A stretch of DNA of 64,000 bases from Periplaneta americana (Eukaryota; Arthropoda; Insecta; Blattodea; Blattidae), in contig NC_091122.1 of assembly GCF_040183065.1 (NCBI RefSeq), positions 155,642,455-155,706,454 of the forward strand. Direction: 5' to 3'. Positions 4,239 to 63,092 of the stretch are shown one piece after another; positions within the stretch are counted from its first letter, which is position 1; each line of letters begins with the position of its first letter. Under the pieces are notes generated by a model. That model was not told where the DNA came from, did no database searches, and saw nothing but the letters and a program-made list of their open reading frames with translations. A program made the translations under genes and the position numbers.

Positions 4239-4664
4239 TAAAAGTCTGCTTAACAAAAAAAAACTTGCTATCAGGATTTTCTTTAAGCCTCAAGATTTTT
4301 AGTGGAAATATTTTTTTCTGTTAGACATAATAATTTTTACCTGCTTTTATTTTTGACTACATAAAATAATTTTTTCTTAGCTCTTGAGTAATAAGCTGAA
4401 AAAAAAAAATAGCAAGTTTTGTTTCAGGGAGTCTCCAAGCTAATAGAAATTCAGATATAATTAATACAGAAAAACTAATAAAATTATAAATACACATAAT
4501 AATCCATATCAGTAGGTACATCGCTAAGAATATTAATTTGTGCCGAAATTGGTCAACCCGGTTCACTAATTGGAAATGATGAAATTTATAATGTAAATGT
4601 TAGCTATGTGGAGCAAATTTCAGGCAACAATTTTGAAATTTGTAGGAGTAATTTTTCAAAATAT
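4239..4664. other. AT-rich geneless stretch
   Basis: Only short meaningless open frames; no repeat family could be assigned. Confidence 0.4.
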
Positions 4665-4669
4665 GTGTG

Positions 4670-4809
4670 TGTATCTAATGCTCTGGATTTAACAATGAAG
4701 TCATCATCCTTCTTGCTTCCCAATATTTTGATGGAAGGTCCACAAATGTCCTAAGAGTTTCACAATTAGCCAGGTGCTCCATCTCCATGTCCTCTTCTCT
4801 GGTGCACAG
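4670..4809 (-). mobile_element. LINE-B 3' end, severely 5'-truncated
   Basis: About 140 bp nearly identical to 62436-62578. On the minus strand it gives the final residues of a LINE ORF2 (CTREEDMEMEHLANC and a terminal LLNPEH-type ending) followed by a short (CA)n tail (GTGTGTGTATCTAATG on the plus strand). It is a typical dead-on-arrival 5' truncation. Confidence 0.8.
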
Positions 4810-5393
4810 TACTATTTAAATTTACGAAAATTTTAATGATTCATATAATTCTGGACCATATGAGATGAAACTTTGTACAAAGGCCATTTACATGCAGCAT
4901 TATATCTGTATAAATGTTTAAAGATCTAGCTCACATGGTTAAAAAAATTCAAATTTCACCTCACTGTAACCTTTCATTAATATAAGCTTTTATGTTGCCC
5001 TGTTAAAGCTGTGAACATTACAATGTTTGTGCAAATACTGCACAGAACCTTGTTTTGAGCATATATTATAACAGTCAGGTGGCATTGAACTCAAAACTAG
5101 TACACTGGCTCGTAGAACTTTTGTCCTATGAAATAATGTGGAAGTGAACTTTGTGAGATATTATGTTGGAAATATGTCTACATATTCCACTCCAGATGTC
5201 GTCCTGGGAAGGGAAGTATTTGAGTTCAAAGTTGCAGGAATATACCCAGCTAATCGAACCAAAGACAAACTTTCAGAACAATAACGGTATATGTAGCCGA
5301 CAGGAGTAAAACATTGAGTCCATTTTGCACAAAAATGTTTAAAACATGTTTATTTCTCTTGAGTATTAGGTTGTATCAGATATGGTTCCAATA

Positions 5394-7199: not shown

Positions 7200-7863
7200 T
7201 CTTACTTACTTACAAATGGCTTTTAAGGAACCCGAAGGTTCATTGCCGCCCTCACATAAGCCCGCCATCGGTCCCTATCCTGTGCAAGATTAATCCATTC
7301 TCTATCATCATATCCCACCTCCCTCAAATCCATTTTAATATTATCCTCCCATCTACGTCTCGGCCTCCCTAAAGGTCTTTTTCCCTCCGGTCTCCCAACT
7401 AACACTCTATATGCATTTCTGGATTCGCCCATACGTGCTACATGTCCTGCCCATCTCAAACGTCTGGATTTAATGTTCCTAATTATGTCAGGTGAAGAAT
7501 ACAATGCGTGCAGCTCTGTGTTGTGTAACTTTCTCCATTCTCCTGTAACTTCATCCCGCTTAGCCCCAAATATTTTCCTAAGTACCTTATTCTCAAACAC
7601 CCTTAACCTATGTTCCTCTCCCAGAGTGAGAGTCCAAGTTTCACAACCATACAGAAGAACCGGTAATATAACTGTTTTATAAATTCTAACTTTCAGATTT
7701 TTGGACAGCAGACTGGATGATAAGAGCTTCTCAACCGAATAATAACACGCATTTCCCATATTTATTCTGCGTTTAATTTCCTCCCGAGTGTCATTTATAT
7801 TTGTTACTGTTGCTCCAAGATATTTGAATTTTTCCACCTCTTCAATGGATAAATCTCCAATTT
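7200..7863 (-). mobile_element. RTE-type LINE 3' fragment, copy a
   Basis: The minus strand encodes the C-terminal part of a LINE reverse transcriptase: [15 protein letters not shown], then [20 protein letters not shown], then [20 protein letters not shown]. The catalytic palm with YADD is missing through 5' truncation. The frame is open for 218 codons to the normal stop. The tail is (GTAA)n. A perfect 18-bp target duplication TTATTACCAATGACAACA lies at 7182-7199 and 7864-7881. The clade (RTE/BovB-like) is judged from the C-terminal YGCETW and GRPRRRW motifs. Confidence 0.92.
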
Positions 7864-8375
7864 TTATTACCAATGACAACAGCCAAAGAAAAATAAGCTA
7901 TATGCGCATAATAATGCAAAGAACCGTGGCATGAGGAGGAGCTACAAAATGCCGTGTTTATTAAATTTATCTACTGTATATCACTAGACCACTAAGTAAA
8001 CATATTCTCTTTGAGTTTACTAAGTAGCTTGGTTCAACCTTTCTGTTGTGAGGAGGAGTGGTATGTTACCTGCGGGGAGACTACCTGCCGCCTACGCTAC
8101 TGTCCTGGAGTGAGTACAAATACCAACTTAAGAACGAGAAAAACTGTATTGTATATCGGACAAAAGTTTTGCGAGCCAGTGTACAATGAAACCTCACCTC
8201 ACTTTAAATGCAGATCCCTTGTATATGATGATAGGCTTGTTATTATGGAAAAATTTAATTAAGATAACTTGCTGATATGCATTTCATTTATGGAAGAGCA
8301 TATGGAAATGGAAGGAAAAACCTTGTTTAGAACACACCAATCACATAGGAAGAGGACTTTGTAACAAGAATCCCA

Positions 8376-17200: not shown

Positions 17201-20200
17201 AAAAATAGAAAATGAGGTTTAAGAAACAATCTCACATACAGACACGTACCTATAATTTCTTCCAGGAACCTCTCAAATACAGGATCTTGTTGCGTCTCAT
17301 CCACAATAGTTTTGATGGCATGGTTCAGTTCATGGAGCATCATGTCACTCGCAGAAGCTGGTGCTGATGATCCTGCTATGATCGGCGATACTTCTGTACT
17401 GCTTGGCTCAACAGCAGCTGTTGTGGATGCATTGTTTTCTACATTTTCCAAACCTTCTCCTGGTCCTGTATTTCGGATCACTCTGTTAATATTCTCCGCA
17501 ATCTTTTCGTGCAACTCCTTGTTATCCAAAAGAGCCCTCGTGAGAACCTAGGCAGTAGAATATTGTTTCTATGTTGTATTACATATTCCTTTAAATATTA
17601 CAGTAATTACTCTGCACAAAATGTGAAATACGAATAAAAAAATAGGATAGCAGTAGAAAATATGTCTACTATAATGTTCTGGAAATATTTTATGAAGAAA
17701 AAGAAACCAACTTACTTCTTAACAATAAGTGAAGCTACTTCATTTTGGAGATGTGTAATGCAAGCAAGTGTACTTATCAATTAATTAAAATTTAAGGGGA
17801 AGAGCCTACAGCAATGACCAAATACGTGTCAAAATTAACATTCTTTAATTTGATCTTAGAAATACTTCATAGTATTGACTTCATTTGAGCGACATTTCAA
17901 GGTCGTTAGAAATAAAATGATTGCTTTTACGCCATTTTTAAATAGCCACTGCACTCCAGTCCCTTTACTCTGTGCTCAATTTTTCAACATTTAATAATAT
18001 AATTGAAGAGCTCACGGGAAAAACGATGAATGTCACATTTCTGTTAAGGATTAGATAATGATTAATTGAGTCTATAACTGCAAGATGTAGTGCTGTTTCT
18101 ATATAAAATAAAGGAAAGGATTACTGTATTTGTGGTGATAATTCTCCTTTTACCATTTTTCATAAGAACAACATTAAATTTCGTAGTGATCCATTGAATT
18201 AGATAATGACATCAACCTTAACAAAACTGTGACATTCATTGTTTTTCCCGCGAACTCTTCATATGTAATATCTCACGCAGAAAAAGCCTAACATTCCAGC
18301 CTTTAGCCTTTACAGAGAGGGCAGCAGAAATGGGGTGGGGAAAATCGAGATGCGACATAGGCACTTGGGCAGACAGTGCAAGGAGATCAAGGGCAAGACA
18401 AGGATAAGAAGGGAAATACAAGGATATCAAGGGCAAGAAAGGAGAACTAGGGAAATACAAGGAAAAAAAGGCAAAACAAAAGCAAGACAAGGAGAACAAA
18501 GGAAACTGAGGGGCAACAAGGGGAACGAGTGGAATACAAGGAGAACAAGGGGAATACGAGGATAACAAGGGAAAGACAAGGAGAACAAGGGGAATACGAT
18601 AACAAGGGAAAGATAAGGAGAATAAGGGGAATACGAAGATAACATGGGAAAGACAAGGAGAACAAGGAAAAGACAAGGAGAACAAGGGAAATACAAGAAA
18701 AACAAGGACAAGATAAAGCGAACAAGAGGAATACAAGGAGAACAAGGACAAGACAGAGGGTACAAGAGCAAGTTAAAGAAAACAGGTGCAAGACAAGGAG
18801 AATAAAGGAAAACGGGAATTCAAGAATAACAAGGGAAATAAAGAAAAACAAGGGCAAGATAAGGCGAACAAGAGGAATACAAGGAGAACAAGGACAAGAC
18901 AGAGAGAACAAGGGCAAGAAAACAAGTTCACGGCAAGGAGAATAAAGGAAAATGAGGGAAAACAAGGAGAATACAAGTGAAAAAAGCAGAATACAATGAG
19001 AACAAGGACAAGACTAGGAGAATGATAGCAAGACAAGAAGAACAAGAGAAATATGGATAGGCAAGGAGAACAAGGTAAAAACAAAGAGACCAAAGGGAAA
19101 TAAGGAACAACGAGGGGAATACAAGAAGAACGAGACAATAAGGGAAAGAGAACAAGGTGAAAACAAGGAGAACAAGAGAAATATGAGAAAAACAAGACGA
19201 ATTCGAGAACAAAACGAATACAAGAGAAAAGGAAGATAAAGACAAAGGGCAAAAAACAAGGAGGAGAGTAAGGTTAAGACAAGTTGCATTTTCATGTGGC
19301 AGTCAATTTCCAAGTTACCTTCCATAACTAGCAAGCAGAAAGCAATACCTCTACACTAAACATTCACTAGATCTACTAAGTAACATGTAATACAAACTTA
19401 CTGAGAAGTCGAGACTTTCACTGGAATCGTTGTCATCAGAATGTGACCTTCGTACCTTACTTGGAGACAAATTCTTTACTGGAGTGACACCTTTCACTGG
19501 GGTGGGGTTAGCACATTTCCTCTTTGAACTGTTAAGTCTAAAAAGAATAATCGTAATATGTAAAATAAATGAGAACAAACTGATACGTCACTTTTAAACT
19601 ATATCATTCTATAAGAGGATCATTCTATGAGTAGAGAGACAAATAACTAGAACATAAAATGTGTAGGCTGTTCAATAATGAATAATTCTGATTTTATTAC
19701 TAGCACAGTTTTGAATTTCATGTTATATTTTTATTATAACATCTCGTATATTATGTAACAATGATATAATTTTCCGATTTTAACCTGCAACAATCATGTT
19801 GAGACATGTTTAGTTTCGCCTACAGCACAATGGAGTTGACGCATTAAGAACAATATGCTGCTCTGAAATTTTGCTTGTGTCTTAAAAAAATAGTGTAATG
19901 AGACATATGAAATGTTACAGCAAGCTTGTGAGTAATCTGTTCCACGAGCTACACTATTGCTTGTAGGTGGTGTACAAGATGTTCAAAAACAGAGGGCAAT
20001 CATCATCAAAAGACACTCAGGGTCGATTTCTAAAATGAGGTCTAGGCCACGGCCATGGCTTTAAACCATGTTCATATTTATAAAACAAGGTCTCATTCAT
20101 TTCTTTGAGCCATGGTTCGAAACCATGGTCTCAAACAGAGACCACAGCTGGTACCCAGATAAGACTGATGTCCTATATATAGGACACCGGACGTTTTATT

Positions 20201-23200
20201 TTTTTTTAACATTGTTGTGTAAGATTTTCATAGTCGGCAATCATGATACCATAATACTTAAGTGTTATAAATTGCCTCCAATTTTTTTATTATGTTCAGT
20301 CTTGTCATAGTCATTGTTGTTAACATATTTGTGTGAGTCATGGATGTGGGCAGAACATGTTGTTCTCGAAGTAGGTATATATCACATGCTATAGATATAA
20401 TGCTTTTGATATTGATAGGGCACACTCGTATGATGTACTTCGTATATAATAATTCATAATTAGATTCAATTTTATATTTAGTGTTATGCCATATCATTGT
20501 AAAGTTAGGCGTACTACATGTAGTACATCAGTCATAAGAGGGGAGATTTCGTGAGACTGATGGTACTCATATTATTATAGGGGGTTTTCACTAAATGAAG
20601 CCTTACAAATGATTCAGGACGACTAAGTTGCTATACCTAAGTGCAATAACATTTCCATCACCATTTTTTCACCAAAAAATGCGTGTGGTAATGTAACTGA
20701 TGAGGATTCTGGTGATGAAAATAACCCTACAATTGACAATATGCCTGGTAGTCAGTTGCGAGCTGAGACGGAAGTAACCCTCAACACACAAGGAGAGGGA
20801 ATGGATGATTATAATGACGAAAGTTATAATGGTGATGATGAACATAGTAAAGGCAATGGTGAGAATGGCAGTAGAAATACTAGTGATTGAGCAACCGATA
20901 TACAGATGAAGAGAAAGAATAATAAATTTCAATTGGGAAGAAGTTGACATACAGCAGGGAAATACTATATTTTTCAATTTCCGTGGACACAGTTTCAAGA
21001 TACTCTAGAAATTTGAAGAAGAAAATATCAGTGAAATAGCCCAATAATCTGTACAAACATCTATTAGAAGCAAGAAATGGTACTTTAGTCTGCATTAACG
21101 TAGCAGAACAAAATGCATGGTAGCTAGACAAGATAAACTCCAACGAAAAACTCGATCATCTTGCATTTCGCAAATGTCTTGTCTTATCTGTTCTCAAATC
21201 CACTGCTCGACATGTACAGTCAAGCGGTAGACCAGCAGTCGTCAACTCACTGCACTCTCGGGCTATCGTCTCTTACCCACAGGTGCATTTGTGGCTGCTG
21301 GCAGGTATGCTCTCTACCTAATCCAGCTACACTTACCAGTTACCCATTTCAGCGAATGCTGAAGACCACTGTGGTAGACCATCTCATTTAAGACTGAACA
21401 AAAAAATTCAAGGTTTGATGGAAGTAATCATTTTGTGGTATCTCAAGAAAAACAAACTCCATGCAAACAGTGTCACACAAAGACAACAATAACATGTATG
21501 AAGTGTGATGTTGGTGTACATGTAAAATGTTTTATCACGTATCACACACCATAAACATTCTCGAAAAATACAACAATCTTATTATGTGTGAGTGATATTA
21601 TAATTTTATGTTAATTTGATGTATTGTTAAGCTAAACAATTTATATATATTAGTGCTAAAACGACTTATGTCATATAATGTTTTTTGCATGGGAATATGA
21701 CTGATATCCTATATATAGGACACTGAAAATCTCGGATACTATCAACATAAATTTAAAAACAGCTTTGTTATGTTATATCAATTATAATTAAATAATTCAT
21801 ACAAAAAAAATTGTATTTTTTTTAACAAAAAATAATTCAGTCTTATCTGGGTTAAAACTGCAGCTTCGTATGTACAAAATGGACTTAGTGTATCAGCTGG
21901 ATGATTATCTTCTTTCCTAATATCATTAAACCCCCGATTAGTGTTGAGAAACAGGAATAATCCTTTAGAATTACATAGCAGCGATAATTTCAGGCAAAAA
22001 TTTCTATTTTGGAAGGAATCAACGCAACATTTAGCAAGAATGCTAAATAATGACCTACAACGAAGTGCAGTTTTATTACAGTTTCTTGTTGCTTTGAGGT
22101 AAGGTACAATACTTACTTACTTACAAATGGCTTTTAAGGAACCCAAACGTTCATTGCCGCTCTCACATAAGCCCGCCATCGGTCCCTATCCTGTGCAAGA
22201 TTAAACCAGTCCCTATCATCATACCCCACCTCCCTCAAATCCATTTTAATAATATCCTCCCATCTACGTCTCGGCCTCCCTAAAGGTCTTTTTCCCTCCG
22301 GTCTCCCAACTAACACTCTATATGCATTTCTGGATTCGCCCATACGTGCTACATGCCCTGCCCATCTCAAACGTATGGATATAATGTTCCTAATTATGTC
22401 AGGTGAAGAATACAATGCGTACAGTTCCGCGTTGTGTAAATTTCTCCATTCCCCTGTAATTTCATCCCGCTTAGCCCCAAATATTTTCCTAAGCACCTTA
22501 TTCTCAAACACCCTTAACCTATGTTCCTCTCTCAGAGTGAGAGTCCAAGTTTCACAACCATACAGAACAACCGGTAATATAACTGTTTTATAAATTCTAA
22601 CTTTCAGATTTTTTGACAGCAGACTGGTTGATAAAAGCTTCTCAACCGAATAATAACATGCATTTCCCATATTTATTCTGCGTTTAATTTCCTCCCGAGT
22701 GTCATTTATATTTGTTACTGTTGCTCCAAGATATTTGAATTTTTCCACCTCTTCGAAGGATAAATCTCCAAATTTTATATTTCCATTTCGTACAATATTC
22801 TGGTCACGAGACATAATCATATACTTTGTCTTTTCGGGATTTACTTCCAAACCGATCGCTTTACTTGCTTCAAGTAAAATTTCCGTGTTTTCCCTAGTCG
22901 TTTGTGTATTTTCTCCTAACATATTCACGTTATCCGCATAGACAAGAAGCTGATGTAACCCGTTCAATTAAGGTACAATATTCTATATTAATTATAAGTT
23001 ATATATGCCTATAAGACAATGTAAGTCCATTCATACTCTTTACAATACATTTGAAAATTATATTGAAATTGATGTTGGCCTTCAATAGTACCAAGCAAAC
23101 GTGATTTTTTATATTAGGTTTTATGCTACTTGGGCTTTCTACGAAGTCGTGTATTTGAAAATATAGGCTAATCATAATGCATTTAGTTTTAATTGAAATT

Positions 23201-26200: not shown

Positions 26201-29200
26201 ACATATTTGCAACCAAGACCTCTTCAAGTGATATCTCTATCCAATGCTTTTGCTTCAGTCAAGTCTCATTTTGCAAACCTATGGATCAACAATTGGCTCT
26301 GTTCTGACAAAGGAAAAATTTTACAGTCTGTACAAAAGAACCCAAATGACCTGGAAATGTACAAAAACTTGCCCAGACATGTTCAAACATTTTTAACAAG
26401 AGTCAGAACAAGTCACATTGTCACACAATTGTACCTACACCGATTTCACATTTCTGATAATCCTACTTGTCTGTGGTGTAATAATCATGATGAAGATCTG
26501 GAACACATTCTTCTATACTGTCCATCCATAAACCACAAAAGAAGTAAATTAAACTCATCAATACCGGTTGCAGAAGATACAGCCCTGCAGTATATATTGA
26601 CTACACCCCAACTCTGGCTACTAGCAACAGGCATCTATAATGAACACCGATCAAAATACCCCTCATTTCTCGTGAAAAACAACAACTGAATAGACTACAG
26701 TGGACTATAGTGGACTTTATGTTGTCAGCAAACAGCTGGATACATTAAGAAGATTGATTGATTGATCTATACAATCATACATAGGCTACCCTACATAAAA
26801 AAAACAAACTAAGCTACTATTAAAACTACTTACTTACTTACAAATGGCTTTTAAGGAACCCGAACGTTCATTGCCGCCCTCACATAAGCCCGCCATCGGT
26901 CCCTATCCTGTGCAAGATTAATCCAGTCTCTATCATCATACCCCACCTCCCTCAAATCCATTTTAATATTATCCTCCCATCTACGTCTCGGCCTCCCTAA
27001 AGGTCTTTTTCCCTCCGGTCTCTCAACTAACACTCTATATGCATTTCTGGATTCGCCCATACGTGCTACATGCCCTGCCCATCTCAAACATCTGGATTTT
27101 AAGTTCCTAATTATGTCAGGTGAAGAATACAATGCGTGCAGTTCTGTGTTGTGTAACTTTCTCCATTCTCCTGTAACTTCATCCCGCTTAGCCCCAAATA
27201 TTTTCCTAAGCACCTTATTCTCAAACACCCTTAACCTATGTTCCTCTCTCAGAGTGAGAGTCCAAGTTTCACAACCATACAGAAGAACCGGTAATATAAC
27301 TGTTTTATAAATTCTAACTTTCAGTTTTTTTGACAGCAGACTGGATGATAAGAGCTTCTCAAACGAATAATAACACGCATTTCCCATATTTATTCTGCGT
27401 TTAATTTCCTCTTGAGTGTCATTTATATTTGTTACTGTTGCTCCAAGATATTTGAATTTTTCCACCTCTTCGAAGGATAAATCTCCAAATTTTATATTTC
27501 CATTTCGTACAATATTCTGGTCACGAGACATTATCATATACTTTGTCTTTTCGGGATTTACTTCCAAACCGATCGTTTTACTTGCTTCAAGTAAAATTTC
27601 CGTGTTTTCCCTAATCGTTTGTGTATTTTCTCCTAACATATTCACGTCATCTGCATAGAAAAGAAGCTGATGTAACCCGTTCAATTCCAAACCTTGCCTA
27701 TTATCCTGAACTTTCCTAATGGCATATTAGGAAAGTTCAGGATAACAGGCAGGGTTTGGAATTGAACGGGTTACAACTAACAAAATATAACTGAATTTAT
27801 TAATTAAAAAATAGTTTCATTTGAATTTATGTTTAGAAACTCTCCAACAGAGTAATTTTAGATAACCAATTATACAATCCTGTTTTGAAACTTTTTTTTT
27901 AACTAATGGCGAGTAGATGACAAAAAGAGGTATATTACTGTTAATAATAAAATTGAATTATATATTCCAGTTAAGAAAATGTGTAGAACAAGTAAAAGCT
28001 GCTAACTTATTACTTTAGCGGTTAAACTCCATTTACATTTCTAATTTATATAGTTTAACAATTTCACAACACTACATTTTCACTGTAGAAATAAAGAAAA
28101 CTTTTATAGATAATACTTAGAGACTTTATAAATCTCATTAACATCTTCAATGTTACGCTCTAATAACATACAAAGTGACTTTATTATTCTGATGTACTTG
28201 TTGTTCAGTTCCACTTTGCTTTCACCACTTCACTGAAATCCCACATCTTCACTTTGAAGAGTATCAGGTCAGTAGAAAAAAAGTCAGGTATTGTAATTAT
28301 TTTAAACAGAGATTTTGTGACATTGTTAATGAGAAATGTAGCAATATAGTCACGACATTGAAATATGTGTGTTTTTGGTGCTAATTGATATTTTGGTTCT
28401 TTGCATTATCAAAGTTTTTCTCTTAGACCTTGAATAGGTGATCACTGATCATTCAGATTTCTGTGGTAAGATGTGCAGTTTTGCATAAGAATGACTCGCA
28501 CTACTTTTTTTGTCATCTGAATCTTGAACTGGTGTGTCAATGTGTCAATTTTCTCAACTTCACTCCTTGTTCCATATGAAAGAATTTCTACCACTTAGTC
28601 TAAAAAAGAATCTTATTCAGACACTTGTAATGCCCCATTTTGATTATTGCGATTCCTTGCTAACTAATGTAAGTTCACTTTTAGCTGAGAGACTACAACG
28701 TGTTCACAATGTGTGCATACGATTCATCTGCAATACTCGTAAATTTGACCATATAACACCTTCCCTCCAGTTACTTTCATTGGTGCGTCTGAAGGAACGA
28801 AGAACAATACATTCACTGTCTCTTCTGTTTAGAATCATGCATACTTCTACTCCGAATTATCTGTTAACGCGCTTTCAATTTCTTACAACTATTCGAAACC
28901 AACTTCTTTCTATCCCTCATCATAGAACGTCTTTATACTCATCTTCCTATACTGTAGAAATACCTCGCCTCTGGAATTCGTTACCTAATGACGTCAGGGA
29001 CTGCCGGACTTCATCACAATTCAAAATTAAATTGGAAAATTTTGTCTCAGTTAATGTTTTTAGGTATTGCTAGAAGTATTCATTGTGTTTTTTTTTTCTT
29101 TTTCTTTTTTAATCTAGATTAAAATTGCAAGTTTCTTGTTTATGTTAGTTAATTAGTTAGGTTACAATTAATTATGATACTTAATCACTCATTTAAAGTT

Positions 29201-44260: not shown

Positions 44261-45605
44261 CAGTAGCGTGCAAATTAATCCGAACACAACATATTTTTAC
44301 ATTTTCTGTCATTGTTGGCCTCACAGCTGCTCATACCGCATTCATTGACATCTGTAGTACGTGTAATTCCATTGTTGAAGGTCTGTCATTATTTTTTTAT
44401 AACATGTGATATTTTGCCTGTCGTTTTGTACTTATAAGCATTTCAGTTGTGTTGAAGACTTAATACTGCAATCCTGTGTACATTCTGTCGTCTTCACAAA
44501 TGGATACAACTCCACGAAAACGGTCTAAAATTATAACATTAGCAGAGCATTCTTCTATGACACAGAGGCAAATTGCTGCAGAATGTCACATCGGTTTGGC
44601 TACTGTTAATTTGATCATAAAACGATACAGGGAGACTGGATCCATCACACCCCAGAAAAAAGGAAACTGTGGTCGGAAAAGGAAGACTTCACCTGCAGAT
44701 GATCGTTTAATTGTCAGGAAAAGTAAATTAAATCCTAGACTAACTGCTGTCGACTTAACCCGCGAGTTAATGGCTACCACTGGGGCGAATATTCACGTCA
44801 CAACAGTGCGGCGTAGGCTTTTGGAAGCTGGACGAAGGGCTCGTAAGCCCATTAAGAAGCAACTGCTAACCCCTGTTATGTGCAAAAAACGCTTAATGTG
44901 GGCAAAATTACATCAACACTGGACAGTGAATGACTGCAAGAATGTACTTTTTTCCGATGAGTCTCATTTCGAGGTCCACGGCCACCGTGTTTCTTACGTA
45001 CGGAAAGGATCCGAAAAAGTAACAGCAGCTCATCTCCAACAAGCACCCAAATACCCCCTAAAGCAATGTTTTGGGGTTGTTTTACACATGAAGGGCCTGG
45101 AGCATTAATACCTATCAAGGGAATGATGAATTCTGACAAATATATTCACTTATTGGAAACCAGAATCGTACCCCAGCTGCAAAAATCATTTCCGGATGGC
45201 AGAGGTGTGTTCCAACAAGACCTGGCACCATGTCATACGTCTCGAAAAACTACAGAATTCTTCAACAAGAAGAATATTCAGGTACTCTCCTGGCCAGGCA
45301 ACTCACCCGACATCAACCCCATTGAGAACTTGTGGTCAATTTGCAAAAGAAGAATGCAAAAAATGGATTGTTCTACAAAGGAGAAGATGATTTCTGCCCT
45401 CATTGGTGTATGGTTTCGCGAGAAGAAATTAAGAATATTTGTGGGAAATTAGTGGAATCCATGCCAAATCGTCTCAGAGCTGTTATTAGGAACAAGGGAG
45501 GCCACATAGATTACTGAGGTATGTCTTAGATCCTTTTTTTTTTTATCCCGTTTGAGTGTTTTTGCATAAGTAATTACGTTGTTCGGATTAATTTGCACGC
45601 TACTG
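44261..45605 (+). mobile_element. Tc1-like transposon, nearly complete
   Basis: 1345 bp with inverted ends CAGTAGCGTGCAAATTAATC at the left and GATTAATTTGCACGCTACTG at the right, matching for about 27 bp, and the TA target duplication at 44259-44260 and 45606-45607. It contains one transposase gene of full length broken by two single-base frameshifts. The near-identical ends suggest a comparatively recent insertion. Confidence 0.95.
44500..45517 (+). pseudogene. Tc1-family DD34E transposase, two frameshifts
   Basis: Start MDTTPRKRSKIITLAEHSSM. First helix-turn-helix about residues 15-45 (TQRQIAAECHIGLATVNLII); GRKRK (AT-hook-like) near 68; second HTH near 95-115. Catalytic residues: D in LFSDESHFEVHG (about 44955), D in VFQQDLAPCHTS (about 45218), E in SPDINPIENLWS (about 45326), with exactly 34 residues between the last two: the DD34E signature. 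A base is missing near 45064 (CTAAAGCAATG) and another near 45415 (GTTTCGCGAGAAG). Total length, about 338 codons, is normal for Tc1. Not functional without both repairs. Confidence 0.93.
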
Positions 45606-45733: not shown

Positions 45734-46277
45734 ATGGGTTGGTGCATAAGTTCCTAGCGTTTTTTCATAAGTTTATTAAACACATCAGATACACATAAGA
45801 GAGAAGTTAATAATCAACAATATATTTCCCTTCACTATTTACAACAATCTGCCAACGCTGGAGTAGTTTTTAGATTCCACGTCTGTAGAAATCGCGTGAT
45901 TTCGAGTTAAAGAATTCGTCAAGCCATGTTCGGAGCACATTTTCATCCGGAAAGGAAGTTCCTTGAAGGTTGTTCGATAGAGAGCGGAAAGGGTGAAAAT
46001 CTGAGGGCGCAAGATCAGGTGAATAAGGTGGATGCGGAATGACTTCCCAACTCAACTCCTGGATAGTGTTTTGTGTCAGGTTAGCAGAGTGCGTGATGGC
46101 ATTATCGTGGAGTAGCATCACTTCACGCAGTCTTGTTGGTCGTTTTTCTTGGATTGCGTGTGAAAGACGTCTCAATTGGTGGCAATAAATGTTGGCAGCG
46201 ATGGTTACACCTCGGGGAAGTAATTCGTAGTACAGCACACCCTCGCAGGTACACCTGGTGCATAACATTATCATTCT
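45734..46277 (-). pseudogene. mariner transposase, C-terminal half
   Basis: A minus-strand frame (46274-45870) encodes GVLYYELLPRGVTIAANIYC, LREVMLLHDNAITHSANLTQ (second catalytic D), VIPHPPYSPDLAPSDFHPF (third catalytic D) and ENVLRTWLDEFFNSKSRDFY. The 3' terminus at 45734-45760 (GGTTGGTGCATAAGTTCCTA) is the inverted repeat of this mariner group. The N-terminal half with the first D and the other end is missing. Confidence 0.9.
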
Positions 46278-46322
46278 AGTCTGAAGGCAGACGCGCTACC
46301 ACAGAGCTAACTCGGCGGACTG
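46270..46322 (-). repeat. tRNA-like SINE head fragment
   Basis: The minus strand reads GCCGAGTTAGCTCTGTGGTA, GCGCGTCTGCCTTCAGACTA: an A-box and anticodon-arm-like stretch with no B box or body. It directly abuts the truncated mariner. Confidence 0.5.
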
Positions 46323-54100: not shown

Positions 54101-57100
54101 GACGTGGACAAATTATTAGCAAAATTGACGATTTTTATGGAATATTTTTACAAAATTTAACTCTTCAATTTAAACTACAACTAACATTTCTGCACATTTC
54201 TATCATTATAGTACACAGAAGTATATATAAAAATGTCAACTGTAGTCTAAATTGAGAAGTCAAATTTTGTAAAAGTATATCATAAAAATATTCAATTATG
54301 CTAATAATAATTCGTCCATGTCTGAATGCTTGCTACACAATCAATGTCTTTCACTTAATACTATATTACTCTCTGTACTTAGTCTCCTAACCATTCCGTT
54401 TTTTTTTTTTTTTTTTGTTTTTTTGCATTTTTCCTCGCTTATTGTATGTTAAGTCGAGTATTTTCTTTAAGGGTTTAGTACCAGTTTGTGATATAATTCA
54501 TTTTCTCTTCTAAATAATTTTCAACTGGCTAATCTAACTCACAGCTTCATACTTTAATCTTTTTAATTGTTTTAGTTTCACAATTTTATTGAAGAGAATG
54601 ATGTTATTTTATATTTCAGGGCAGTTGGAGTGACATTAGAGGTCATCGTTCTGTTCTGCAGCTCACATTACTCGTTTCATCTACCTTTTATTTTGTATTG
54701 GGTGCTGCTACAACTTTTCCACTTATCTTCATAGCAAGGTTTTTTCAAGGTAATCATAACTATATAATACAAAACTGGGAATTTATCCTTTGAAGAGGTG
54801 CAAAATTCAAATATCTTGGAGCAACAGTAACAAATATAAATGACACTCGGGAGGAAATTAAACACAGAATAAATATGGGAAATGCCTGTTATTATTCGGT
54901 TGAGAAGCTTTTATCATCTAGTCTGCTCTCAAAAAACCTGAAAGTTAGAATTTATAAAACAGTTATATTACCGGTTCTTCTGTATGGTTGTGAAACTTGG
55001 ACTCTCACTTTGAGAGGGGAACAGTCGTTAAGGGTTTTGAGAATAAGGTGCTTAGGAAAATATTTGGGGCTAAGAGGGATGAAGTTACAGGATAATGGAG
55101 AAAGTTACATAACGCAGAACTGTATGCATTTTATTCTTCACCTGACATAATTAGGAACATTAAATCCAGACGTTTGAGATGGGCAGGGCATGTAGCATGT
55201 ATGGGCGAATCCAGAAATACATATAGAGTGTTAGTTTGGAGGCTGGAGGGAATAATATCTTTGGGGAGGCCAAGACGTAGATAGGAGAATAATATAAAAA
55301 TGGATTTGAGGGAGGTGGGATATGATGGCAGAGACTGGATTAATCTTGCTCAGAATAGCAACCAATGTCAGGCTTATTTGAGGGTGGCAATGAACCTCCG
55401 GGTTCTTTAAAAGCTTTAAGTAAGTAACCATCAATAAATTATACAATGAACGATCACTGATGCATGGGAGTGGAAATTTTTAGTTTCCGCGGGAAATTCC
55501 TCCCTGACTTCATCACTATATTCCGAAATGAGACTATTTCCAATATGAAACAAAACTACAAGAATGTCATAATTTCTGATCATTGCATTCCCATTCCAAA
55601 AGAAACTATTGTGATGTCCCTTCATATTTTCTAAATTTCTTGAATGATTGTAATGAATTATTTTACAAACATTTTTTGAGCTTAACTGTACAAACTTGTT
55701 TCCATCTTGTAGGCCTATATTATTCAATAGAAAGATTTATTTTATTGGGTTATTTTACGACGCTGTATCAACATCTAAGGTTATTTAGCGTCTGAATGAA
55801 ATGAAGGTGATAATGCCAGTGAAATGAGTCCGGGGTCCAGCACCGAAAGTTACCCAGCATTTGCTCGTATTGGGTTGAGGGAAAACCCCGGAAAAAACCT
55901 CAACCAGGTAACTTGCCCCGACTGGGATTCGAACCCGGGCCACCTGGTTTTGCAGCCAGACGCGCTGACCGTTACTCCACAGGTGTGGACTTCAATAGAA
56001 AGAAATGCAGCCCAAAAATAAAGAGAAAACATTAGCATACCGTACTGTTGTTAATTAATATAATCACCGATAACTTTGTAACTTCTTTACTGTGTTAATA
56101 TGAGACCTCTTCAAGTGAAATCTCTATCCAGTGCTTTTGCTTCAGTAAAGTCTCATTTTATAAACCTATGGATCAACAATTGGCTCTCTTCTGACAAAGG
56201 AAAACTTTTACATTCTGTACAAAAGAAACCAAATGACCTGGAAATGTGCAAAAACTTGCCCAGACATGTTCAAACATTTTTAACAAGAGCCAGAACAGGT
56301 CACATTGTCACTCAATTGTACCTACACCAATTTCACATTTCTGATAATCCTACTTGTCTGTGGTGTAATAATCATGATGAAGATCTGGAACACATTCTTC
56401 TATATTTACTGTCCATCCATAAACCACAAAAGAAGTAAATTAAAATCATCAGTACCAGTTGCAGAAGACACAGTCCTGAGGTATATATTGACAACACCCC
56501 AACTCTGGCTACTAGCAATATGCATCTATAATGAACACCGATCAAAATACCCCTCATTTCTCGTGAAAAACAACAACTGAATAGACTACAGTGGACTATA
56601 GTGGACTTTATGTTGTCAGCAAACAGCTGGATACATTAAGAAGATTGATTGATTGATTGATTGCTTGATTAATATGAGGAATTTTACCTGGCTGACTAGT
56701 TTCAAAGTGGTATTCTTCATTATCCGAAGCCTAATAATATAAGTCCAATTTAGTCCTTTGAGATAAATGGTTCATTATTTATCACTTGTTACGAGAATTG
56801 AGGACTGTTTTTTGCAAAACTTGCTAACTGCAAAATTTTCAAAATCGAGATTTTGGTGGATTAGCTAACAGAAGACAGGCCTCTACATGATGCTAAAGGC
56901 TTCTTAGGAAAATATTATTTCCTTCACAGTAGTGTGTCAAAGTGTGATCGTTTTTTCAAAACTTGCTTTCTGCTATGTGAGAGCTATAGCAAAACTTGCA
57001 GTTATTTCAGTTTTTTGTGTTTCCTATAAAATTTAGTTTTTGCAGTTAGCAAGTTTTGCAAAAATAGTCCTCAGTTATACTAATCGTGTAATACAATGAA

Positions 57101-60100
57101 AGCAACATGATGTAATTATAATTTATTATAATAACTCATCAGTTGATTTAAATATAACTTCCCTGTAAAATGTTAATTGACAGTAAAGGAAATATTCTAT
57201 ACAGTCGAATGTTCTAACATTTAAAAATCAGTAACACTGACATGAAAGTTTTATTGTTTTTCAGCACCTATGTTTCCTTTGCAGGTATATCTGAACACAC
57301 ACAAGTGCTATGTGGATCATTGCTGGCTGGAGTGGTTCCCTCTGACAAACAATCAGAAGTTCAAGGTCACTTTGCTTCTTTTGGAGGACTGGGCTTCATT
57401 ATTGGGCCCATAATTGGTGGACATTTAATAGAATATGACAATGGCTTCCAACATGTCTGCTCCATAATTGCATTTGTATCTATTATCAATTTTGGTAAGT
57501 ATACATAGGCTACACAAGTAACGTAAAATTAATATTAAAGGAAGAGAGTAATCAAATTTGGAATTTTTTTCCAATTTGACGAAAAAAAAAAATGTGTGTG
57601 GAAATTTCATAGCAGTATTGCGCATCTTAAACGTGTTAGAATGAAAGAAAAGCAATTTGGAGGGCCCAAGGTTTGAAGAATAGTACCCTAATATAGTAAA
57701 TCATTAAAACTGATGTATTTACTAATTATTCATCTTTAAATATTTTACTCTTACATACATGTTCGTCAAATTTTCTGCATCAGAATTTAGATTTGTATAA
57801 TCAATTACATATATTGCAAGAATAAATTTTAGTTTTTCTTTTATAAAAATGAACATACATAAATATATATTATATACATTTTTTTCTAGCAATATAGCAA
57901 AAAGTGAAGTTATGGGGAACTCCAATCAATTGTAGGAGTGAAATTCTTACCTTTCTTCTTATTATGATTTCACTAGCACTCCATTATGAATTGAGGACCG
58001 TTTTTGCAAAACTTGCTAACTGCAAAATTTTCAAAATTGAGATTTTGGTGGATTAGTTAACATAAGACAGGCCTCTACATGATGCTAAAGGCTTCTTAGG
58101 AAAATCTTATTATTTCCTTCACAGTAGTGTGTCAAAGTGTGATCGTTTTTTCAAAACTCGCTTTCTGCTATGTGAGAGCTATAGCAAAACTTGCAGTTAT
58201 TTCAGTTTTTTGTGTTTCCTATAAAATTTAGTTTTTACAGTTAGCAAGTTCTGCAAAAACGGTCCTCAATTGTAACACATCAAAACATTATAATATATAC
58301 ACCATTATCTCGCATATACAACGCCAACTGAAGTTTATGCTATAATCACTAAGCATTGAATGCAAACTGCATCAGATCTAATCTAAAATTGAATATGTGC
58401 ACTGCTTAGAAGCCCAACTAAATTACGTATTATTATTATTATTCAGATATTTTCCATGGTTAGATACAGAAAATTATATTCACAGCGTCTGTTACACATA
58501 AAATAAATCCAGTAGAGTAGGTGTCTTTGTAATAAATGCTAAATAATGTTGCACTGTCTAAACTCAGGCAGCAAAACCTGAAAGCTTCATTAAATTCCCA
58601 ATTTTTTATAATATCAGTTTTCTGTATTATTACCATTCTACAGAGTGTTCGAGCCAAGATGTCCACTCACTACTGGTGGTGCACGGCCTGCGTATGCTAC
58701 TCGGGTCGTCCGTCTCTCGCCAAACGTTGACCATAATTTGCGGCAAAATAAAACTCATAATACTGAAATAAAAGACTTATCTTATTATAGTAATTGCTGG
58801 AAATGGTTACCTTCGGCATTCAAGCAAGCTTGACATCACTTCAGGACATTCTCGAATAATTTATGAAGTTCATTCTCAATTATGGAATGCACTACACGAA
58901 TTTTGTATGGTTTTAACTTCAACAATTTAGGGTCGACAGCAATTCGGAAGGCGTTAGTCTGCTAGCGTTTACGTCGAGAGAGACAGATAGATAGAGCAAG
59001 GCAGCGTACAATATTGCCACATCGTACTTCACACACACGTGCAATACAAATAGCGTAGGAGAGAATTTAAATTATCAAAAGACAATAATGACCTTAGCCA
59101 TTGATTGCTGTAAGCATGACACCAAACAAACCCTCTTCCTTCACTAACAATATTCTTTGCACGGTTCTCAATCCCACAACACATACTTCTGCAGTCGTTT
59201 CTTGCACGTTGGCAACGTTGCAGTCAGCATCAAGATGGCTGGCAGCATTCTGCTCGTCAACGTTTTTAAAATAATTATACACCTTAAACACTATTTTCCG
59301 CGCCTGCTTGTGCAATACTTGTCTTTTTACACTCTCTTATTCCATTTATTTATCTCACACACAGTAAATGTTAGTTTTACTTATTCAATGCATTGAAACA
59401 CTCACACGTGAACAAACGCATTCAGGAAGTACTTGTTATAGACTGATTCCGATTGGTACAAGCTTGTGACATCACATATCAGAAATGCTACGGTGCATAT
59501 AGCAGCCGACTGCCTTCCGAAATGCCATCTAGTCTAGTGGCGTATTGAACTGAGGTTTCTGACACCCCTACTTCCTGGGCTAATCTGCGCAAAGATTTCC
59601 GAGGACTTCGTTCTAATCGAAAACCTATTTCATCTCAGTTTCCTCAGTTAAGATTCGTTTATTCACTTGATGCTTCTTATTTTGAACCTAGCCTGTCTCA
59701 TTACATTTCTTTACGAGTCTGTATATTGTTTTCTTGTTTGGCACAGGACCATTGGGGAAACGTCTGAATTTACAGCAACACGTTCTCCACGATATTTCAT
59801 GAAACTCTTGCATATAAAAATGCGTTGTTCTATACTGTACATCACAACACAAACGCACACAATAGAGACTCCACGATATTTCATGAAACTCTTGCATATA
59901 AAAATGCGTTGTTCTATACTGTACATCACAACACAAACGCGCACAATAGAGATTCCACGATATTTCACGAAACTCTTGCATATAAAAATGCGTTGTTCTA
60001 TACTGTACATCACAACACAAACGCGCACAATAGAGATTCCACGATATTTCACGAAACTCTTGCATATAAAAATGCGTTGTTCTATACTGTACATCACAAC

Positions 60101-62248
60101 ACAAACGCGCACAATAGAGATTCCACGATATTTCACGAAACTCTTGCATATAAAAATGCGTTGTTCTATACTGTACATCACAACACAAACGCACACAATA
60201 GAGATTCCACGATATTTCACGAAACTCTTGCATATAAAAATGCGTTGTTCTATACTGTACATCACAACACAAACGCGCACAATAGAGATTCCACGATATT
60301 TCACGAAACTCTTGCATATAAAAATGCGTTGTTCTATACTGTACATCACAACACAAACGCGCACAATAGAGATTCCACGATATTTCACGAAACTCTTGCA
60401 TATAAAAATGCGTTGTTCTATACTGTACATCACAACACAAACGCACACAATAGAGACTCCACGATATTTCACGAAACTCTTGCATATAAAAATGCGTTGT
60501 TCTATACTGTACATCACAACACAAACGCGCACAATAGAGATTCCACGATATTTCACGAAACTCTTGCATATAAAAATGCGTTGTTCTATACTGTACATCA
60601 CAACACAAACGCACACAATAGAGACTCCACGATATTTCACGAAACTCTTGCATATAAAAATGCGTTGTTCTATACTGTACATCACAACACAAACGCACAC
60701 AATAGAGACTCCACGATATTTCACGAAACTCTTGCATATAAAAATGCGTTGTTCTATACTGTACATCACAACACAAACGCGCACAATAGAGATTCCACGA
60801 TATTTCACGAAACTCTTGCATATAAAAATGCATTGTTCTATACTGTACATCACAACACAAACGCACACAATAGAGACTCCACGATATTTCACGAAACTCT
60901 TGCATATAAAAATGCGTTGTTCTATACTGTACATCACAACACAAACGCACACAATAGAGACTCCACGATATTTCACGAAACTCTTGCATATAAAAATGCG
61001 TTGTTCTATACTGTACATCACAACACAAACGCGCACAATAGAGACTCCACGATATTTCACGAAACTCTTGCATATAAAAATGCGTTGTTCTATACTGTAC
61101 ATCACAACACAAACGCACACAATAGAGACTCCACGATATTTCACGAAACTCTTGCATATAAAAATGCGTTGTTCTATACTGTACATCACAACACAAACGC
61201 GCACAATAGAGACACACTGAATATTGACTTGAATCTATCATATTAGCAGGTGGCTTAATGCCAGAACTTGCATCATTCCTGCCCTCCAACCAGTTTTCTT
61301 GGTAAGGGGGACATCTTGACTCCAATGCCCTTGTATATTGCTGCATAATCATCTTATCATCTTTTCACTGCTTCTGAGAAAAAATCTGAAATTTAAGAAG
61401 TTGCTAATATATAAATGTGTTACATTAAATTTTCTCTTTTTACAGTACTGGTATATATTTTAATACCAAACATACAACCATCAAGTAACAAGAAGAATAA
61501 AAATACTGCTGAAGAATATGATGTTCGTCATCCATCTACACCGTCTACAACAGAAAATATTAATTCCTCAGAAAGAAGAAGTAATGATAAAGCGGACATA
61601 AAGTCTACTTCAAGATTGAAAGAAGTCTCTCCACGTTATGAAATTTTTCAAGCAGTATCAGAGCTGTTGAATATAAACTGGAAGTTGTACTGGGATGTAT
61701 TTCTTTTAAAATTTTTTTCTGACGTCACTCTCAGTCTACATTACCAGAACGTCGTTATTATTCTAAAAGAAGTGCACAATCTTAGTCCTACATGGATTGG
61801 ATACACTATGTCTTTAATGGCAGTGGTTGGCGTTGCAGCGAGTTCTCTGACAGGTTTAATCAGCAGATTATACAAGAATGATGGAACCCATGCCAAAAGA
61901 ACGCTTCATGCCTGCATACTCTTCGTGTTTCCGTTCCTCCTCCTTTGCATCACGTCTAATTTGTCTCTCATGATTACTTGTTTTATGCTGATAAGTGCTA
62001 CTTACTCACTTCTAAGAATTACAATATCGGAGATAATCCTGCAAAGGACATCTGCAGATCAGATGGGATCGTTAGTTGGTTGTGCACAGAGTATGTTTTC
62101 GTTATCTCATCTCGTAAGTCCCATAACATCAGGAGTAGCCCATGAACTCTACGGTTTTCAAGGCCCAACAGTATTGAAAGCCATTACAGCACTGATCACA
62201 TTGTCTGCTTCTTGTTCGTTGTTCAGACATAAAGTGAAAAACGTGTGA
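48112..62248 (+). CDS. MFSD9-like major facilitator transporter, five-exon gene model
   Basis: Exons: 48112-48159, 52187-52318, 54620-54749, 57285-57494, 61446-62248. Every junction is GT-AG with matching phase, giving 440 residues and a TGA stop. The start is chosen because YVVGCL joined to DMLACSLYLPLM reproduces the first transmembrane helix. Loop 2-3 has the MFS signature GSWSDIRGHRS (motif A). RFFQGISEHTQV and GLGFIIGPIIGGHLIE (TM5 motif C-like) match MFSD9 most closely of the families I know. A hydrophilic central loop of about 65 residues (about 180-245) separates two six-helix bundles, as in MFS proteins. Substrate unknown; MFSD9 is an orphan membrane transporter. Length is close to human MFSD9 (somewhat over 470). 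The introns are packed with TEs, but the coding sequence is unbroken. Confidence 0.85.
48915..49920 (-). mobile_element. mariner-superfamily element, decayed
   Basis: Ends CACAGTGGGCC and GGTCCACTGTG are inverted repeats extending into A/T runs (AAAAAAAAAAAGGCACCAAA against TTTGTGTCTTTTTTTTTTT), with TA duplicated at 48913-48914 and 49921-49922. The minus strand gives RDLNPMDYFVW (third catalytic D region, about 49400) and IEHIRQRLLECWDRLDQRQI, QWRRHLQMVVRANDSHIEHHF-like C-terminus (49386-49198). The N-terminal half is unrecognisable. In intron 1 of the MFSD9-like gene. Confidence 0.87.
50171..50800. repeat. Foldback element with 41-bp hairpin
   Basis: The left arm 50171-50211 (CCTATAATGGTAGTAATTAA...) is mirrored at 50226-50266, loop GAGCGCAAGCGAG. 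A further inverted pair, TTTTTATGCTCGGCCAT at 50281-50297 against ATGGTCGAGCATAAAAA at 50784-50800, may mark the element's outer body. Non-coding. Confidence 0.65.
51234..51261 (-). ncRNA. Hammerhead-ribozyme-like core, minus strand
   Basis: Reading the minus strand: CTGATGA (51261-51255), stem II GACC...GGTC with an A-rich loop, GAAAC (51238-51234), then a TGTTAACA palindrome as a possible stem III loop and AGGTAC. CUGAUGA and GAAA are the invariant hammerhead elements, and PLEs are known carriers. Stem I pairing was not confirmed by eye. Confidence 0.6.
51670..52065 (+). pseudogene. PLE GIY-YIG endonuclease, 3' part of ORF
   Basis: Encodes GVYKLKCNTCNNFYIGQTGR (the GIY and YIG motifs), SFQTYYKEHIIA, STYAEHITNANHTY, then LNTLEQYEIYRH (conserved E) and a Lys/His-rich tail ending TAG at 52063-52065. 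The layout (GIY-YIG, linker CxxC, NTLEQ) is that of Penelope/Neptune-type PLEs. Upstream the frame is broken by stops and the reverse transcriptase is absent. In active PLEs this nuclease nicks the target for primed reverse transcription. Confidence 0.85.
52046..52073 (+). ncRNA. Hammerhead-ribozyme-like core, plus strand
   Basis: CTGAAGA (52046-52052), stem II GACC (52054-52057) with GGTC (52065-52068), GAAAC (52069-52073), then TTGT-TAAC-ACAA as stem III. The CUGANGA consensus is met. The stop codon of the GIY-YIG frame sits in the stem II loop region. Confidence 0.6.
52187..52318 (+). CDS. MFSD9-like gene, exon 2
   Basis: Acceptor TTTCAG, donor GTACGT, phase 0 to 0. It encodes DMLACSLYLPLMVDHLRSLG, LSYFSIGVLGSLYSGVQL and VSSPII: the end of TM1, a loop and TM2. 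Confidence 0.85.
52886..53153. repeat. Inverted repeat, 38-bp arms
   Basis: GAGGAGCATCGTTTCAAAAC at 52889 is mirrored by GATTTGAAACGATGCTTCTC near 53130-53149, with TATTAAGTCCAA/TTGGACTTAATA extending the pair. In intron 2 of the MFSD9-like gene. Confidence 0.7.
53154..54619. other. Intron 2 remainder, nothing recognised
   Basis: AT-rich; a 100-codon frame at 53858-54160 has no recognisable family and no splice context. Confidence 0.4.
54620..54749 (+). CDS. MFSD9-like gene, exon 3
   Basis: Acceptor TTTCAG, donor GTAATC, phase 0 in and 1 out. It encodes GSWSDIRGHRSVLQLTLLVS then TFYFVLGAATTFPLIFIARF: MFS motif A, TM3 and the start of TM4. Confidence 0.85.
54765..55425 (+). mobile_element. 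RTE-type LINE 3' fragment, copy d, degenerate
   Basis: Same family as copies a-c, in plus orientation: [38 protein letters not shown], then frameshifts and mutated [10 protein letters not shown] and GRPRR regions, ending AAAAGCTTTAAGTAAGTAA. It starts only about 16 bp after the exon 3 donor. Confidence 0.88.
55735..55992 (-). repeat. tRNA-derived SINE, family S3, minus orientation
   Basis: The minus strand starts with a tRNA-like head (ACCTGTGGAGTAACGGTCAG, B box GGGTTCGAATCCC) and continues into the S3 body shared with 30100-30360. It ends in ACGTCGTAAAATAACCC, a common insect SINE tail. Confidence 0.85.
56105..56668 (+). mobile_element. LINE-C 3' fragment, copy 2
   Basis: Encodes [40 protein letters not shown] and [17 protein letters not shown] small insertion (CTATATTTACTG) then breaks the frame before the C-terminus. 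(GATT)n tail. Target duplication TTAATATGAG at 56095-56104 and 56669-56678. Confidence 0.92.
56797..57075. mobile_element. MITE family M2, copy 1
   Basis: About 277 bp; TIRs of about 40 bp (TTGAGGACTGTTTTTTGCAA..., then CTTGCTAACTGCAAAA) mirrored at the right end. A near-identical copy lies at 57990-58270; the two flank exon 4 of the MFSD9-like gene in the same orientation. Confidence 0.9.
57285..57494 (+). CDS. MFSD9-like gene, exon 4
   Basis: Acceptor TTTGCAG, donor GTAAGT, phase 1 in and 1 out. It encodes ISEHTQVLCGSLLAGVVPSD, GHFASFGGLGFIIGPIIGGH and LIEYDNGFQHVCSIIAFVS. It includes the Gly-rich TM5 signature and TM6. Confidence 0.88.
57990..58270. mobile_element. MITE family M2, copy 2
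   Basis: Second copy of the 56797-57075 element, same orientation, with a small indel (CTTATTATT) and few substitutions. The TIRs here match even better (GAGGACCG / CGGTCCTC). Confidence 0.9.
59094..59315 (-). pseudogene. Transposase-associated N-terminal domain fragment
   Basis: A minus-strand frame with KQARKIVFKVYNYFKNVDEQ and QETTAEVCVVGLRTVQRIL. The KIVF.VYNYF...TAE..GV...TVQRI pattern resembles a helix-turn-helix module at the start of certain insect DDE transposases. No catalytic part is present. Confidence 0.5.
59515..59784 (-). pseudogene. DDE transposase N-terminal region, downstream of the 84-bp array
   Basis: The minus strand gives, after a one-base shift at about 59776, FRRFPNGPVPNKKTIYRLVK KCNETG (59770-59690), then lost frame, then LRKSLRRLAQEVGVSETSVQ and YATRLDG (about 59612-59540). 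These are the paired helix-turn-helix landmarks (PVPNKKTIYRLV.KF.ETGSV and PRKSLRRLAQE..VS..SVQ) of a mariner-superfamily transposase. Its extreme N-terminus, MYSIEQRIFICKSFMKYRG, is the part multiplied in the adjacent array. Confidence 0.78.
59785..61213 (-). repeat. 84-bp tandem array, 17 units, derived from a transposase 5' end
   Basis: Periodicity is exactly 84 bp (GATATTTCA at 59791, 59875, 59959 and so on), about 17 units, nearly identical. On the minus strand each unit is a 27-bp leader ending GTTTGTGTTGTG plus ATG and 18 further codons, MYSIEQRIFICKSFVKYRG. Because 84 is divisible by 3, several frames on both strands stay open for 470-550 codons; these are artefacts of the repeat. Variants are few: CGCGCAC/CGCACAC, GATTCC/GACTCC, TTTCACG/TTTCATG, GCGTTG/GCATTG. 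It lies in intron 4 of the MFSD9-like gene, ending 232 bp before exon 5. Confidence 0.97.
61446..62248 (+). CDS. MFSD9-like gene, exon 5 (terminal)
   Basis: The acceptor TTTTTACAG is followed by 266 codons and TGA. It begins VLVYILIPNIQPSSNKKNKN, has a long charged cytoplasmic loop, then helices including VFLLKFFSDVTLSLHYQ, IGYTMSLMAVVGVAASSLTG, CILFVFPFLLLCITSNLSL and MITCFMLISATYSLLRITI. It ends SASCSLFRHKVKNV. This is the entire C-terminal half of the transporter. Confidence 0.9.

Positions 62249-62406: not shown

Positions 62407-62438
<32 letters not shown>
62407..62438. repeat. (GT)n microsatellite, LINE-B tail
   Basis: About 16 GT repeats at the 3' end of LINE-B; the 4670-4809 copy has a shorter run at the same position, so it is part of the LINE tail. 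Confidence 0.95.
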
Positions 62439-62440
<2 letters not shown>

Positions 62441-63092
62441 CTAATGCTCTGGATTTAACAATGAAGTCATCATCCTTCTTGCTTCCCAATATTTTGATGG
62501 AAGGTCCACAAATGTGCTAAGAGTTTCACAATTAGCCAGGTGCTCCATCTCCATGTCCTCTTCTCTGGTGCACAGTAAGCATTTAGGTGAATTCAGTACT
62601 CCAATACGATGGAGGTGTTTACTGAGGCAATCATGACCAGTAATCAATCTAAACATGGCCACGGCAGATTTTCGAGGTAGATCAGGAATTAGTTTTGGAT
62701 CTTTGAATGATTCTTTCCATTTTGAATTTTGATGTTTTGCCTGTTCGCTGTAACTTATTCTTTTTATGACTCGCTTTATTGATTCATATGGGAACTTGAA
62801 ATTTGTTTTTAAGTTGATACAAGTTCCTTTCTTTGCTAACATATCTGCTTTCTCGTTACCGTTCAGTCCACAGTGGGCCGGGATCCATTGGAAGACCACT
62901 TTTTTATTTAGCATTTGAATTTGTTTTACCATGCAATGAATTTCTTTTACTTTTTCCATTTTAGGGGATGTAGTTGAGCTGATGGACTGGATTGCAGCTT
63001 TGGAGTCAGACAGGATGACTATGCTTTTGCACTGGTTTAGCCAAACAAATACATTTTGAAGTGATGTATAAATGGCTTCAACTTCGCCATCA
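62409..63092 (-). mobile_element. LINE-B 5'-truncated insertion with RNase H
   Basis: The minus-strand frame reads DGEVEAIYTSLQNVFVWLNQ (RNase H E), IVILSDSKAAIQSIS (D), FQWIPAHCGLNGNEKADMLA (H, D), then CLLCTREEDMEMEHLANCET and LLNPEH before the stop, with a (CA)n tail of about 16 repeats (62407-62438). The first RNase H aspartate is lost by truncation. The insertion joins in frame with LINE-A, giving one apparent 272-codon frame. Confidence 0.92.

Follow-up and report, generated by a model that had tools for sequence, protein, structure and literature searches.

How did the start of a transposase gene come to be repeated 17 times, head to tail, at one place in the genome of Periplaneta americana? 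The repeats occupy 59785..61213, on the minus strand, of the stretch of contig NC_091122.1 analysed here (the window, 64,000 nt in length). TRF reported a period of 84, 17.0 copies, 98% matches, 0% indels and a score of 2725 at 59785-61213. On the minus strand the units run from 61213 to 59786, with one further base shared at 59785, and 17/17 are 84 bp long. The sequence-only reading, which had announced an 84-bp minisatellite of 17 units here, was thus exact as to position, and its description of every unit as a 27-bp leader followed by ATG and 18 codons holds in all 17. Being homogeneous and arranged head to tail, the 17 x 84 bp form a minisatellite, and such an array cannot have arisen by chance. 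The unit peptide is MYSIEQRIFICKSFVKYRG in 14 of the 17 units; M replaces V in two and C replaces R in one. Four columns vary: column 1 (G in 9 units, A in 8), column 13 (C in 9, T in 8), column 46 (one T) and column 70 (two A). Three of the four, columns 13, 46 and 70, are CpG transitions. No clear higher-order structure was detected among the 17 units, with 5 adjacent identical haplotypes against a shuffle mean of 5.04, and no further copies of the array were found within the 64-kb window.

The array is known from one assembly only, and long near-identical arrays are error-prone, which would fit a shorter repeat whose copies were collapsed or expanded in assembly. However, the units carry distinct variant combinations in irregular order, and the flanks on both sides of the array each occur once in the window, inside a 188-Mb contig; an assembly artefact is therefore extremely unlikely. 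The reading that we favor, with a probability of roughly 0.92, is that a minisatellite grew up locally within a single fixed, decayed, internally deleted copy of a Tc1/mariner-like element.

Indeed, the array lies wholly between the two ends of a transposon copy that spans 58639..61335 on the minus strand, including a TA at both ends, and that is internally deleted; it was delimited by inverted arms and by ends that coincide with those of family copies. The 5' terminal inverted repeat with its TA is at 61309..61335 (minus) and the 3' one, likewise with TA, at 58639..58664 (plus). The arms at 58648-58664 and 61309-61325 are complementary at 15 of 17 bases. In a shuffle test that took in wider flanks the inverted ends were weak, their score being reached by 3 of 1000 shuffles. 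In position, the ends are those of the other family copies, which have a TACAG-like end on both sides in 19 of 39 cases, on one side in 18 and on neither in 2. With terminal inverted repeats and a TA at each end, as a TA target-site duplication would leave, the host element is Tc1/mariner-like. Counting one unit and leaving out a nested insert, it measures about 745 bp and is presumably non-autonomous. An alternative 5' end at the CAGTGTG beside the first unit was ruled out by the outer inverted repeat and by the family copies, which put the end near 61335. A blastn of 61214-61445, which takes in the leader of the element upstream of the array (61214..61308, minus), found a counterpart in 38 of 39 other copies.

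Inside the host element sits a second transposon of about 605 bp (58928..59536, minus strand), with its own inverted ends and TA at both ends. Its arms are 37 bp long with 27 matching positions, a score reached by 0 of 1000 shuffles. A genome search with the 605 bp returned 2707 candidates, and the 40 that were scored comprise this copy and 39 others at 90-92% identity. The insertion site is spanned in one aligned piece, insert absent, by 33 of the 39 host family copies. The nested transposon has an 80-codon open stretch at 59097-59336 on the minus strand, for which no Pfam match was obtained. The sequence-only reading had overlooked this arrangement, namely an array within an element that has both ends, is internally deleted and has a nested transposon inside it.

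Coding remnants lie 3' of the array in the same orientation, among them the GPVPNKKTIYRLVKK and SPRKSLRRLAQE blocks, which are in different frames. The first is a decayed, frame-broken helix-turn-helix part of the transposase N terminus, DUF4817-like (Pfam PF16087), at 59535..59784 (minus), reaching to the nested insert. The last unit had been said to run on into transposase blocks extending over 59784-59515. The last unit does continue into the GPVPNKKTIYRLV and SPRKSLRRLAQE blocks, but these are in other frames, and the limit at 59515 enters the nested transposon by about 20 bp, the element's own part ending at about 59535. Against PF16087, 59691-59783 alone scored 20.0 bits (E 5.5e-4), short of the gathering score of 22.6. 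Prefixing the unit codons spread the match over them without raising it (19.9 bits, again under 22.6). Two family copies, L024 and L016, scored 14.5 and 14.8 bits, also below the gathering score. We therefore read PF16087 as a resemblance of the array flank only, one that lends the unit no independent support; the transposase origin of the unit rests on the genome copies, not on Pfam. The remnant beside the array is similar to helix-turn-helix proteins of the DUF4817 group, and the similar stretch can cover the unit codons. Unlike those proteins, the window copy is frame-broken, has no visible catalytic core and stays under the gathering score in all of its matches.

Closer to the 3' end, at 58788..58929 (minus; reading stretch 58961-58788), the translation of a second remnant (LKLKPYKIRVVH... 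CQACLNAEGNHFQQLL) resembles a transposase end that we take to be C-terminal. Its DNA is matched in other copies, this 3' part in 38 of 39. No Pfam match was obtained for 58839-58961, and no DDE/D catalytic core was seen in the window copy of the host element. L016 is a longer copy, and two pieces of it are likewise without a match to any Pfam family; one of them aligned with a mariner fragment of the window over 13 residues, 7 of them identical, at an E of 6e-4 that applies to a single comparison only. No relatives of the N-terminal peptide were confirmed in viral and prokaryote collections.

The origin of the unit was read from the rest of the genome (3.23 Gb, 91 contigs). With the last unit and the coding part as query, 435 candidates were returned; scoring covered 40 of them, namely the window copy and 39 others, all 39 of which were read. 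Each of the 39 holds one match to the 84-bp segment, 84.3-97.4% identical and covering at least 70 of the 84 bases in 36 copies, and in every one the segment directly precedes the same helix-turn-helix remnant. That 39/39 copies have this single match before the same coding remnant shows the 84-bp segment to belong to the element itself. A majority consensus built from them runs from M-Y-S-I-E-Q-R onward through the helix-turn-helix region in a single frame, which includes the coding part of the segment, and the ATG of the first unit (unit at 61130..61213, minus; ATG at 61186-61184) occupies the family start codon position. The proposal that the 5' leader and first codons of a transposase gene gave rise to the unit is thus upheld, and relatives lacking the N-terminal segment were not encountered among the 39 other copies scored. 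Since 22 of the 39 copies span 720-771 bp, the remainder ranging from 342 to 2046 bp, the internally deleted form is the most frequent one. The family has a MITE-like character: many short copies, a common internal deletion and intact ends.

The repeated segment, made up of 27 bp of leader and 57 bp from the beginning of the transposase reading frame, is thus present 17 times here and as a single match in the other copies. TRF reported no array over the segment at the 39 other loci. Arrays of other kinds were noted at two of these loci: one of 130 bp x 4 at 339-854 of L011, outside the element, and one of 49 bp x 3 at 481-629 of L026, within the span of that long copy. A query made of a 168-bp dimer gave 123 candidates, of which 40 were scored, with 49 matches. 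Ten of these span two units, all within this array, and the 39 elsewhere are single-unit matches. Twenty loci from the dimer search were examined and have one unit each, 14 of the 20 being at places of the first search. Moreover, the 21-bp unit junction, allowing up to 3 mismatches, has 57 matches genome-wide. Sixteen are exact and correspond one to one to the internal junctions of this array; no exact match lies elsewhere. The other 41 have 2-3 mismatches and are fewer than the 67 obtained with a reversed control pattern. Neither the dimer search, with 40 of 123 candidates scored, nor the fixed junction pattern found a second array, and in particular none standing elsewhere without a transposase, the case that had been singled out as a check. 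With 40/435 and 40/123 candidates scored, these searches could miss strongly diverged arrays that have another junction. The many or long arrays of a classical satellite were not seen, a single array of 1.4 kb having been found.

These results bear on the possibility that the array was already present in a progenitor element and was brought here by transposition, the repeats being part of the mobile element, as in MITEs such as miDNA4 whose internal satellites vary. Its position, wholly between the two element ends, would agree with such an origin. However, none of the 39 other copies has more than one unit match or a TRF array over the segment, and the junction is found only here; the divergence among units is also much smaller than that of the element and of the nested transposon from their consensus, although homogenisation could cause that as well. 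We consider transposition of a ready-made array very unlikely.

How might local amplification have started? The suggestion that the array was seeded exactly at a translation start was not borne out, the upstream breakpoint of the repeat being 27 bp away from the ATG on its 5' side. Successive units meet with a one-base overlap. We propose that one tandem duplication linked this leader position to one immediately after codon 19, the two sharing 1 bp. Slippage or end joining would be the most likely route for this first duplication, which, given the one-base overlap, need not have involved long homology. Later unequal exchange, slippage or conversion would have multiplied and homogenised the units. 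The 9:8 split at two columns, with variants mixed along the array, suggests several rounds of exchange or conversion.

In comparison with the family consensus, all units share two substitutions and one missing base, the latter near the unit end, where 17/17 units are one base shorter. The loss of several bases at the array end was considered and ruled out by the family consensus, which shows one missing. Because of this missing base, the RG of KYRG falls outside the reading frame of the family protein. Each of the three shared features also occurs in another copy (the substitutions as an A in L051 and a G in L069; L009 and L051 are likewise one base shorter at the same place), so that they could come from a subfamily and are no proof that the seed decayed in place.

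The sequence-only reading had attached meaning to the amplification being in frame (84 = 28 codons). We do not, with units one base short of the consensus and the array open in 4/6 frames. In 2000 shuffles of the unit the mean number of open frames was 0.89, only 0.1% of shuffles reached four, and 64% had at least one. Four open frames exceed what composition predicts, and behind them is one stop-poor unit that favors no frame; any unit that lacks stops and is divisible by three in length keeps its frames open over any number of copies. That length, the excess of open frames and a minus-strand frame open across 59711-61234 are nevertheless what one might cite for selection on the repeated peptide or on the start codons, as in a repeat protein or a translation-start array. 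So is the match of the array translation to Pfam DUF4278, at 44.4 bits over a cut-off of 25.3, which in our judgement is driven by repetition, a short peptide being scored repeatedly, and which we set aside. In contrast, the openness of 4/6 frames singles out none, at least one open frame is common in shuffles, the unit end has left the frame of the family consensus, and the CpG transitions that make up most of the variable columns are as expected in neutral decay. The coding reading of the array was rejected, and selection is the least probable explanation that we considered, to the point of being negligible. Nothing was found to indicate a function for the array, and its 17 ATGs are inherited passively with the segment amplified.

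Divergence gives some indication of when the array grew. K2P distances were taken to the family consensus; the consensus of the nested transposon was built from 20 of its 39 other scored copies. With CpG sites excluded, the coding part beside the array is 0.042 from its consensus (221 sites; mean of other copies, 0.060), and the nested transposon is also 0.042 from its own (539 sites; mean of other copies, 0.032). Nesting gives the order of the two insertions; the equal distances give none. With the same exclusion, the units differ pairwise by a mean of 0.007 (74 sites), i.e., 0.7%. With CpG sites included, the values are 0.0635 for the coding part, 0.0555 for the nested transposon and 0.0166 for the units. 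The leader beside the array stands far above unit and coding part, at 0.22 (other copies' mean, 0.165), a discrepancy that weighs against the favored reading. Judged by units 0.7% apart against 4.2% from consensus for both the coding remnant and the nested transposon, the growth or last homogenisation of the array came well after the arrival of the element and after its death, and probably later than the nested insertion. The low unit divergence dates the last turnover and not the first duplication, since an old array may appear young once homogenised. The earlier idea that amplification possibly followed the death of the element is supported within that limit.

Tandem amplification of transposon parts into repeats and satellites is a known phenomenon (PMC12628747), and repeats derived from 5' UTRs and ORFs are among those described, as in ENSAT1 from an En/Spm-like 5' UTR and PROsat from LINE-1 ORF2 (PMC9659126). 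The present case is alike in that part of a transposon has been amplified, and unlike in that the part is the leader and gene start of a Tc1/mariner-like element and the product is one short array. A closer parallel is miDNA4, a Tc1/mariner MITE of Xenopus whose internal satellite varies in copy number (PMC12628747; PMC9659126). Both are tandem arrays inside a non-autonomous Tc1/mariner element, but the miDNA4 repeat is described as occurring as a monomer or an array across the family, whereas the 39 other copies here have single matches.

The locus is thus an ordinary, small, single-locus case of known transposon-derived tandem repeats. Its use is as a clean example of the birth of a tandem repeat from a dead transposon: one array locus amid many single-unit copies, with both breakpoints visible and with the host element and nested insertion as time markers. 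It informs on minisatellite birth and leaves accepted views unchanged. No published report of the array was seen by title or abstract start among the open-licence matches listed, and for Periplaneta americana itself open-licence papers yielded none that combined a tandem repeat with a mariner transposase.

The host element probably sits in an intron of an MFS-type gene, as MFS-type stretches on the plus strand lie to both sides of it. The upstream one, a probable transporter exon at 57218..57505, matches Pfam MFS_1 at E 1.3e-7 (31.3 bits, under the cut-off of 33.4). The downstream one, a probable exon of the same type at 61446..62245, starts where a ttttacag acceptor was taken to place it (E 2.7e-13 to MFS_1 for 61415-62245). 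One might imagine an intrinsic tendency of the 84-bp segment to amplify, the array being a hypervariable intronic VNTR, differing between individuals and affecting the MFS-type gene, an idea to which we give very little weight. The same presumed intron holds a 39-nt inverted repeat, perhaps a short MITE, with arms 95% complementary and 205 nt apart (57989-58271).

Other repeats were noted in the window. A Tc1-like transposase remnant at 44464-45452 (plus) runs in two overlapping frames (HTH_Tnp_Tc3_2, E 1e-17, for 44464-45105), and a mariner-type transposase fragment is at 45870-46295 (minus; Transposase_1, E 3.8e-11). Similar open stretches at 7223-7897, 22134-22967, 26851-27726 and 54794-55150 share a protein segment, and these we take to resemble tails of non-LTR retroelements. 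Decayed 20-bp tandem repeats, CAAGGAGAACAAGGGCAAGA-like, fill 18379-19176, with 27 copies at 68% matches over 18379-18919 and several frames open. Finally, a 148-bp stretch at 62430-62577 occurs again at 4664-4811 with 99.3% identity.
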